Of a DNA stretch of 64,000 bases, positions 21,736-24,169 are shown in pieces. The DNA is taken from assembly GCF_021739025.1 (NCBI RefSeq), contig NZ_JAKKOT010000008.1, positions 1 through 64,000 of the forward strand, given 5' to 3'. The stretch is from Gordonia liuliyuniae (GTDB lineage: Bacteria > Actinomycetota > Actinomycetes > Mycobacteriales > Mycobacteriaceae). A program made the translations under genes and the position numbers. Each line of letters starts with the position of its first letter. The first letter of the stretch is position 1. The notes beneath the pieces were generated by a model. That model did not search any database. It was not told the origin of the DNA and saw only the letters and a program-made list of their open reading frames with translations.

Positions 21736-21981
21736 CTACTGCATGCCGTAGCGGCGCCTGAACCGCTCGACGCGGCCCTCCGAGTCCATGACGCGCTGCG
21801 CGCCTGTCCAGAACGGGTGCGAATCGCTCGTCACATCGACGACGATGAGCGGATGGCTGTTTCCATCCGACCAGTCGACGGTGTTCTCGGAGGTCGCCGT
21901 CGACCGCGTCAGGAACTCTTTGCCGGTCGCCGCGTCACGGAAGACGACCGGGTGGTAATCGGGGTGGATTCCGGATTTCAT
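21736..21981 (-). CDS. rpmE2: Zinc-independent ribosomal protein L31 (type B)
   Basis: An 81-residue L31 of the C-minus type ([23 protein letters not shown]...SHPFWTGAQ...[11 protein letters not shown]). The zinc-binding cysteines of primary L31 are absent and the protein has no cysteine at all. Such paralogues replace the zinc form in ribosomes during zinc starvation and release zinc. The ATG overlaps the stop of the upstream mrf-like gene (ATGA), so the two form a leftward operon under the Zur-like box at 23334. Confidence 0.95.
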
Positions 21982-23303
21982 AGTTGCTCTCCTTCTGGTC
22001 TCGACTCCGCTCGAGAGGCGGATGACGATTCGGTTCGGTCGGTCGGGGATTCCATGTCGTCGCACGGGTCGCGGTGGGCGTGCCCGAACGGCGAGGGCAG
22101 TGACGTGATGTAGGCCTGGCCGCGTGCGAGTTCGTCGTCGGTCACCAGCGCATCTGCGAGTGCGCGACGAACGTCGCCAGGATCGGCGCGGTGGCACAGG
22201 ACGGTCAGCGCGGTGTGTCGGTCGCCGTGCTCACGATCCCATCGCAGCGAGGCCAGGACCCGGTGCTCGGGGTCGATGTTCGAATGGTCGTCGACGCACG
22301 CCAACCAGGTGCCGACGTGCCGGATCGACAGTCCGCCGCCCGCTGACTCGAGCCACATGACGTCGTCCGGGTCGGACGCGAACCACATCCGTCCGCGGGC
22401 GGTCACCACGCCCTCGAGCAGTACGTCGAGGCTGTCGTGGAGCCGTTCGGGATGGAACGGGCGGTCGGCCTCGAACGACACGAGCTGTACGCCGCAGTCC
22501 TCGTCGAGGTCGGGTCCGCCGGCGAGCAACGGGTCGAAAGGCTGCGTCGGACGACCATGCGGCGTGCCCGGGGTCATGGCGTCGATCGATCCGTCGACGA
22601 CCGCCCGTGTGAGCGCCTGCTGGCTGTTGAGTGTGCGCATGCCCGCCGCAGGTGCGAGCCGCAGCAGCACGGCGTGCAGACGCGCGAGATCGTATGCGCT
22701 CTCGACTCCGTCGGCGCCGTCGATGACGATCGCGTCCGCGAAGCGGACCTGTGCGACGGCGATCTGGGACAGCGTCCGCTCATCGTCGGGTTCGGTCGCA
22801 CCCTCCTCGATCACACCCGCTTCGGCGAGTGTCGCGTCGCCGGTCGCGTCGTCGAGCCAACTCCTCGCGTCGATCCCGCACAGCGTCGCAGATATCTCTA
22901 CGTCCGCAGACGCCGGGCCGGGGGCGACGTCGGGCGCCTCGACGACGGTACTGCCGATCTCGACGGCCAACCGCTCGGGTTCGACCATGGGATCGAGCAG
23001 GACGACGATCTGTCGAACGTCGGGGTCGCGGTGCAGGGTGCGCAACATCGGCAGCAGATCCAAGCGCAGCGTGCACGACACACAACCGTGCTCGAGATCG
23101 ATGTCGTCGATGCTGAGCGTGTCGACGCCGTCGAGCGACATGCGGTGCTCGACGCGTGTCACTCGCCCCGCGGCGACGTCACGCAAGTCGTGCGAGACGA
23201 CCGTCGTACCTGCGCTCAACATCGTGTAGGCGATGCGTGCGCTGATGGTCCGGTCCAGGCCTGCGACCAGCGTCACCGGGGTGCGGTGCGTCGCGTCGGA
23301 CAT
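21978..23303 (-). CDS. mrf: CobW/COG0523-like protein, homologue of Rv0106/Mrf (hibernation factor recruiter)
   Basis: A 441-residue protein. The N-terminal [18 protein letters not shown] occupies the Walker A position of COG0523 GTPases, but the GKT is missing. A Cys74-x2-Cys77 pair in [10 protein letters not shown] is kept where COG0523 has its metal site. The C-terminal half ([64 protein letters not shown]) strongly resembles M. tuberculosis Rv0106. In M. smegmatis the related Mrf, encoded with the alternative ribosomal proteins, recruits the hibernation factor MPY to ribosomes when zinc is low. GAAGGAG precedes the ATG at 23303. The functional name is by homology and context. Confidence 0.82.
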
Positions 23304-23333
23304 GTGGACTCCTTCGTCTCGATCCCGTACTAA

Positions 23334-23348
23334 TGAACACGATTTCCG
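23334..23348. promoter_or_regulatory. Zur-like box upstream of the mrf-rpmE2 operon
   Basis: TGAACACGATTTCCG matches 12 of 15 positions of the TGAAAACGATTTTCA form of the mycobacterial Zur palindrome, as I recall it. It lies 30 bases upstream of the mrf start. Zur with zinc would repress the gene; zinc depletion would release it. Confidence 0.65.
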
Positions 23349-23387
23349 TTTGAATAATTCCGACTGTAGCGTGGCGAACGCATTTAA

Positions 23388-23402
23388 TGCGAATCGTTTT
23401 CG
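23388..23402. promoter_or_regulatory. Zur-like box upstream of the rpmB2 operon
   Basis: TGCGAATCGTTTTCG matches 12 of 15 positions of the same palindrome in the other orientation (TGAAAATCGTTTTCA). It lies 16 bases before the rpmB2 GTG and just ahead of the AAGGAG ribosome site, so it probably covers the transcription start. Confidence 0.65.
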
Positions 23403-23418
23403 ATAAGAAGGAGTGCAT

Positions 23419-23649
23419 GTGTCCGCCGAATGCCAAGTCACCGGGAGGGTTCCCGGGTTCGGGAAGCAGGTCTCGCACTCGCATCGACGCACGTCACGGC
23501 AGTGGCGGCCGAACATCCAGCGCAAGACGTACTGGGTTCCGTCGCTCGGACGGCGCGTCACGCTGCGAGTGTCCGCGGCCGGAATCAAGACGATCGACCG
23601 CGATGGGATCGACGCCGTCGTCGCACGCGTCAAAGCTGCGGGGCACTAG
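23419..23649 (+). CDS. rpmB2: Zinc-independent ribosomal protein L28
   Basis: A 76-residue L28 ([33 protein letters not shown]...[21 protein letters not shown]), very close to M. tuberculosis RpmB1 (Rv0105c). It has a single cysteine, so the zinc ribbon is absent. The GTG at 23419 is chosen because AAGGAG sits 5 bases ahead and the protein then starts like its relatives; the frame extends two codons further upstream. First gene of rpmB2-rpmG2-rpsN2-rpsR2. Confidence 0.93.
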
Positions 23650-23817
23650 ATGAGCAAGAGCACCGACATACGGCCCATCGTGAAGCTCAAGTCCACTGCC
23701 GGGACCGGCTACACGTATGTGACTCGCAAGAACCGTCGGAACGACCCGGACCGACTCGTGTTGCGCAAGTACGACCCGGTGGTCCGCCGCCACGTCGAAT
23801 TCAAGGAGGAGCGCTGA
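23650..23817 (+). CDS. rpmG2: Zinc-independent ribosomal protein L33
   Basis: A 55-residue L33 ([20 protein letters not shown], then [20 protein letters not shown]) without any cysteine, whereas zinc-type L33 has two CxxC pairs. The ATG directly follows the rpmB2 stop (TAGATG) and its TGA overlaps the rpsN2 ATG. It is part of the ribosome that replaces the zinc-containing one in zinc starvation. Confidence 0.94.
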
Positions 23818-23933
23818 TGGCCAAGAAGTCCAAGATCGTGAAGGAGCAACGACGCCGCGGAGTCTCCCGTGTTCGATTCCGGTCCATGGCCCACCGCGGC
23901 GAACTCCCCGGCATCACGAAGGCGAGCTGGTGA
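23817..23933 (+). CDS. rpsN2: Zinc-independent ribosomal protein S14, internally deleted (38 codons)
   Basis: The frame encodes only 38 residues: [13 protein letters not shown], the S14 N-terminus, runs directly into [22 protein letters not shown], the S14 C-terminus. Cys-free S14 paralogues in this order are about 101 residues long, so some 60 central residues (roughly 14-75) are missing without a frameshift. Start and stop overlap both neighbours (TGATG at each junction), so the operon architecture is intact. Whether this miniature can enter the 30S subunit is doubtful. It may be a decayed gene kept for translational coupling, a real miniaturised protein or an assembly error. Confidence 0.8.
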
Positions 23934-24169
23934 TGGCGAAACCGAAGAAGCCGAACAGGACTGGTAATCCGAACAGGGTTGGAGTCAAGCGTCGCACGGC
24001 CGATCCGACTCTGACGTTCGACTACAAAGACACCGCGACGCTGCGCCGCTTCCTCACTGAACGCGGCCGCATCCGTGCGCGTGCCCTCACCGGGCTGACA
24101 CCGCAGCAGCAACGGCAGCTCGCGACGGCCGTCCGGAATGCGCGGGAGATGGCTCTGCTCCCATTCTGA
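23933..24169 (+). CDS. rpsR2: Zinc-independent ribosomal protein S18
   Basis: A 78-residue S18 ([62 protein letters not shown]) lacking the cysteines of zinc-type S18. The ATG overlaps the rpsN2 stop as TGATG. It is the last gene of the alternative ribosomal protein operon; 22 bases later the convergent fadD17 ends. Translation depends on coupling, as there is no separate ribosome site. Confidence 0.95.

Follow-up and report, generated by a model that had tools for sequence, protein, structure and literature searches.

A zinc-independent S14 gene of Gordonia shortened to 38 codons by an in-frame internal deletion, probably a decaying relic

Introduction

In Bacillus subtilis the zinc-free S14 protein RpsNB (S14*) replaces the essential zinc-containing S14 late in zinc starvation, and part of the report on it (PMC5007448) describes this protein as a fail-safe for de novo ribosome synthesis under conditions that prevent the production of zinc S14. 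According to the same part of that report, B. subtilis strains without RpsNB show linear instead of exponential growth when zinc is severely limiting. Zinc-free S14 of group A streptococcus (RpsN.2) aids survival in zinc-poor conditions (PMC12707111, from a portion of that paper). The altRP operon of mycobacteria is described in a portion of PMC5912738 as controlled by Zur; as recounted there, M. avium strains have an altRP operon of two genes and M. leprae is without alternative ribosomal proteins.

The Gordonia operon described here has the same four genes as the mycobacterial altRP operon (PMC5912738, in that portion). It was analysed in the window, a stretch of 64,000 nucleotides of Gordonia liuliyuniae (positions 1 to 64,000 of contig NZ_JAKKOT010000008.1, forward strand), where the S14 gene has undergone a single in-frame deletion of 189 bp and is probably a decaying relic. 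The intact RpsNB of B. subtilis contrasts with its deleted counterpart in the window, whose strain is predicted to be in the condition of the strains lacking RpsNB (PMC5007448, in part). Loss of parts of an altRP operon, Zur-regulated in mycobacteria, within a genus is a likeness to M. avium and M. leprae; however, the mycobacterial operon is cut to two genes or absent, whereas the internal in-frame deletion in Gordonia leaves a short open frame (PMC5912738, in that portion).

Results and discussion

The S14 gene of the window has lost 189 bp in frame

The operon, its divergent neighbours and the region between them were assigned as follows.

21736..21981, - strand: L31 type B, zinc-free (NCBIfam PRK01678, 131.1 bits, cut-off 86), located downstream of the GTPase gene, whose end it overlaps
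21978..23303, - strand: MRF-type GTPase (ribosome hibernation factor-recruiting), divergent neighbour (NCBIfam NF047431, 502.9 bits, cut-off 375)
23304..23412, no strand: divergent promoter region, with two stretches, ATGAACACGATTTCCGTTTGAAT and TGCGAATCGTTTTCGATAAG, which we take to be Zur-box-like from their likeness to mycobacterial Zur sites
23413..23649, + strand: L28, zinc-independent, rpmB2 type, intact (Pfam L28, E=4e-26)
23650..23817, + strand: L33, zinc-independent, rpmG2 type, intact (Pfam L33, E=3.9e-17)
23817..23933, + strand: S14 remnant, rpsN2 type, 38 codons, in which residues 1-14 of the 101-residue protein are joined in frame to its last 24
23856..23861, + strand: junction of the deletion (codons 14/15), placed to within a base or two, with 189 bp absent relative to relatives
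23933..24169, + strand: S18, zinc-independent, rpsR2 type, intact (Pfam S18, E=2.1e-21), its start overlapping the S14 stop

In the window sequence the S14 remnant is an open frame of 38 amino acids that runs from an ATG start to a TGA stop, and it is joined to each neighbour by a TGATG overlap. Upstream, the L33 stop TGA (23815-23817) shares a base with the S14 ATG (23817-23819); downstream, the S14 stop TGA (23931-23933) shares a base with the S18 ATG (23933-23935). The Shine-Dalgarno-like sequence AAGGAGG lies inside the 3' end of L33, ahead of the S14 start, whereas the Shine-Dalgarno belonging to S18 itself is apparently weak, with nothing comparable to AAGGAGG ahead of its start.

Alignment of the 38-mer with the S14 of seven intact relatives, a check that the preliminary description of this locus had proposed, revealed that 63 residues (189 bp) are gone and that residues 1-14 and the last 24 are kept. 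The alignment and the open 38-codon frame bear out the internal in-frame deletion reported in that description, and the window sequence confirms the intact TGATG junctions to both neighbours. Its account of the gene as retaining both ends also stands, although the extents it gave (the first 13 and the last about 22 residues) were slightly off. Missing from the 38-mer are most of the N-terminal region and an RNRDxxDGRPRG-like loop common to the intact relatives; this core loop reads RLRNRDAVDGRPRG in the nearest relatives. The region deleted here is the one by which S14 binds the 16S rRNA of the 30S head. Ser-23 of the 38-mer stands where most relatives have Glu, a difference of three adjacent bases, and it is the sole residue among the last 24 without a counterpart in any close relative.

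The Pfam profile Ribosomal_S14 (PF00253) matches residues 12-37 of the 38-mer at E=3.8e-9 (36.6 bits, cut-off 27), with only the C-terminal half of the profile aligned. Two NCBIfam S14 models scored 38.6 and 38.9 bits, about half of the cut-off of 77, because only the C-terminal part of S14 aligns. The best match in the PDB was a 101-residue S14 (8whx chain o, residues 75-101, E=2.6e-10). Residues 12-38 of the 38-mer align to this chain and to residues 74-100 of 6dzi chain 9, both of them mycobacterial C-minus uS14, and relative to that protein the window S14 is without 63 of 101 residues, the core loop among them. The 38-mer has the position expected of S14 within the L28-L33-S14-S18 operon and falls short of full length, which is about 101 residues and includes the N-terminal part as well as the core loop (38.9 against 77 bits, and the alignment). 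A chance open reading frame was ruled out: both ends align to S14, at the correct place in the operon, between flanking L28, L33 and S18 genes.

Other Gordonia operons have a full-length S14

The operon was used as query in a DNA search of 59 Gordonia genomes, one genome per species. It was found in 50, and all 50 loci (L005-L034, L048 and L105-L123) were examined. The search found no operon in the remaining nine, of which three (G021, G028 and G045) gave no match and six (G002, G014, G033, G035, G039 and G042) gave only a short match limited to about query bases 40-108, within L28. S14 is 101 codons long in 48 of the 50 operons, 38 codons long only in the window, and absent in G013. Intact copies of L28 are present in all 50 operons, of L33 in 48, of S14 in 48 and of S18 in 47. 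In the closest relatives, G016 and G058 (Gordonia zhenghanii), which share 87 and 86% DNA identity with the window over the first 445 query bases, S14 is intact. Among 40 named loci, S14 was picked up by a simple motif in 16, always with 101 amino acids; the S14 counts leave out the other 24 named loci and the family loci L052 and L054-L056.

Because 48 of the 50 operons, those of the closest relatives included, have a 101-codon S14, the deletion in the window is derived. On this sequence comparison it most likely arose on the window species' own branch. As would be expected of a pseudogene, the window S14 carries a derived lesion where its orthologues in the closest relatives are intact.

Only one assembly carries the short form, as would be the case if the true gene had 101 codons and 189 bp had been lost in sequencing or assembly, but several observations make an artefact very improbable. 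The assembly comprises 13 contigs and is 99.99% complete and 0.02% contaminated, and the site lies 23.8 kb inside a 236-kb contig, away from the contig end. Comparison with the closest intact relatives revealed breakpoint repeats of at most 4 bases in L007 and none of at least 4 bases in L006, and none are 189 bases apart. The change from Glu to Ser, with its three adjacent bases in the retained part, is left unexplained by a collapse, and other deletions are present in other Gordonia genomes.

A zinc-binding S14 remains elsewhere in the genome

Elsewhere in the genome, one S14 scores over the Pfam cut-off, a 61-residue zinc-binding form with four cysteines. Zinc-binding partners were also identified for S18 (one CxxC) and L28 (two CxxC). 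With the full-length S14 of a relative as query, there was no significant match in the genome beyond the two S14 genes, the next best having E=0.09; a split gene with its missing part elsewhere was ruled out by this search.

A second short S14 was sought across the family

The 38-mer peptide was searched in 401 family genomes, the matches listed being the best ones, and 398 of the 401 match it with an E of 0.01 or below. Among the matches listed, only that in the window's own genome extends over residues 1-38. All the others begin at residue 11, 12 or 13 of the 38-mer, in the C-terminal half of S14. No second mini-S14 was found among the matches listed for the 401 genomes, where one with very different breakpoints could escape; a contiguous mini-S14 like that of the window would be expected to outscore the matches that are unlisted. 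A conserved mini-S14 family is thus unsupported, and in the literature searched on Gordonia or on truncated zinc-free S14, a truncated zinc-free S14 was not found. A single S14 match is present in 8 of the 53 sampled Gordonia genomes, namely G013 and seven of the nine in which the DNA search found no operon; the remaining two of these nine, G039 and G042, lie outside the family protein sample.

These data bear on whether the 38-mer could be a functional miniature S14, a genuinely reduced ribosomal protein that serves in zinc shortage and still attaches to the 30S head by its C-terminal 24 residues. The conservation of those residues, Ser-23 excepted, would agree with such a role, as would their dN, which is not raised. 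However, the core loop of intact zinc-free S14s is deleted, the form is unique among the 50 operons, and the listed family matches hold no second case; we consider a working miniature extremely unlikely.

No raised dN over the 37 codons compared

Over the retained codons, the window S14 differs from those of the two closest relatives by dN of 0.081 and 0.068 and dS of 0.76 and 0.74. Between the two relatives themselves, dN is 0.087 over the retained codons and 0.155 over the codons deleted in the window. No raised dN was seen in the S14 remnant relative to intact S14, a comparison of 37 codons with little power, so that the raised amino-acid change in the remainder expected of a pseudogene was not found over these few codons. 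An un-raised dN fits a recent deletion and also fits continued constraint. For the window and the same two relatives, dN is 0.027 and 0.000 in L33 and 0.018 and 0.031 in L28. In the S18 core it is 0.049 and 0.069, against 0.019 between those relatives; by these figures, which carry no significance value, change in the window S18 somewhat exceeds that in theirs.

Lesions in other Gordonia operons

Damage was found in six of the 50 operons (those of the window, G013, G007, G004, G010 and G049), each time of a different kind; each lesion is described against the nearest intact relatives and not against ancestors. In G013 (L118, 618-680), S14 and most of S18 are deleted, and the S14 start codon is fused to the S18 tail to give a 20-codon open reading frame directly after L33. 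The L33 gene of G007 (L121, 555-620, minus strand of the locus) is cut in frame to 21 residues, compared with about 55, and retains the first 12 and last 9. Of S18 in G004 (L025, about 2232-2267), only the last 11 residues are left, preceded by a start codon; a join of two ATGG words apparently produced this form. G010 has an S18 with an internal frame-shifting deletion, and the L33 gene of G049 (L119, 835-996, minus strand of the locus) has a nonsense codon mid-gene, with a GTG next in the same frame. The G007 lesion is of the same style as that of the window S14, in another gene and another species.

With six of 50 operons damaged, Gordonia can probably often do without the spare zinc-free set. 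Among the five deletion lesions, a reading frame survives in four (window S14, G007 L33, G013 S14-to-S18 and G004 S18) and is lost in one, that of S18 in G010, the last gene. The chance of at least four in-frame deletions out of five, at one third each, is 0.045; the idea came after the data had been seen, and the bias is a hint rather than evidence for selection on coupling.

The frame count, the stop/start overlap at 23931-23935 and the AAGGAGG before the S14 start would all agree with a remnant without S14 function that selection maintains as a translated spacer for the coupled translation of rpsR2 (S18). This we regard as possible but doubtful. The count is post hoc and tiny, and one in three random deletions would be in frame anyway. 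An intact downstream gene to couple is present in only two of the five lesions (the window and G007), the frame in G013 crosses from S14 into S18, and the apparent ATGG join in G004 would recreate a start codon mechanically. Selection for a spacer is compatible with decay of the S14 gene, to which it adds only the claim of selection. It is unlikely that the zinc-free operon of Gordonia more generally tolerates, and selection retains, in-frame miniatures of its internal genes (the S14 of 38 and the G007 L33 of 21 residues) as ribosome carriers or small proteins.

The S14 remnant as a probable decaying relic

We conclude that the window S14 is most likely a zinc-independent S14 gene that was broken by a single in-frame 189-bp deletion and is now a decaying relic. 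The deletion is unique among the operons examined, a lone zinc-type S14 is left in the genome, and operon decay recurs in other Gordonia. The loss of function, the expression and the physiological consequence that we infer would run as follows. The deletion removed most of the N-terminal part of S14 together with the core loop, the frame of the remnant most likely being kept by chance or through the coupling of S18 translation. At low zinc, with the operon derepressed and a good Shine-Dalgarno in place, the 38-residue peptide would probably still be made, and the remnant would pass ribosomes on to the S18 gene. S18 translation is probably passed on in this way because AAGGAGG and the stop/start overlap are kept and S18 is without a comparable sequence. 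The 38-mer would most likely be unable to replace S14 in the 30S head, and the deletion would leave the zinc-binding S14 as the only S14. Under zinc shortage the strain would go zinc-free for L28, L33, S18 and L31, whereas S14 would stay zinc-dependent. By analogy with Bacillus lacking RpsNB, the window strain is predicted to show a similar deficit under zinc limitation.

Counted against a relic are the frame, start, stop and Shine-Dalgarno, all of which are intact, and the dN, which is not raised. Of the three explanations offered in the preliminary description, a relic is nevertheless the best supported. Its suggestion of a new miniature ribosomal protein is unsupported, in view of the destructive lesions in sister operons, the missing core and the lack of a second case among the listed family matches. 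The argument from intact junctions that selection on the operon continues was too strong, since the window's is one of six damaged operons among 50.

The kind of event is ordinary; the interest lies in a natural experiment on partial replacement of zinc ribosomal proteins. The lesions suggest that several Gordonia lineages can do without the zinc-free 30S proteins, and they point to natural mutants with an incomplete spare set. Such mutants could be used to test whether exchanging just a part of the four zinc-binding proteins suffices to survive zinc shortage, and also whether S14 is the fail-safe that it has been proposed to be in Bacillus. In genome annotation, a short open reading frame of this kind could pass for a small ribosomal or hypothetical protein and so mislead surveys of mini-proteins.

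Upstream region and neighbouring genes

The crude word AATCNTTT is present in 15 of the 36 upstream regions that were extractable from the 50 loci. For the divergent MRF-type GTPase, the nearest named loci are those of Gordonia zhenghanii (79% identity) and Gordonia spumicola (71%). The listed start of L28 is the GTG at 23413; the GTG at 23419 is more likely, as relatives such as G007 and G013 start at the equivalent of 23419.
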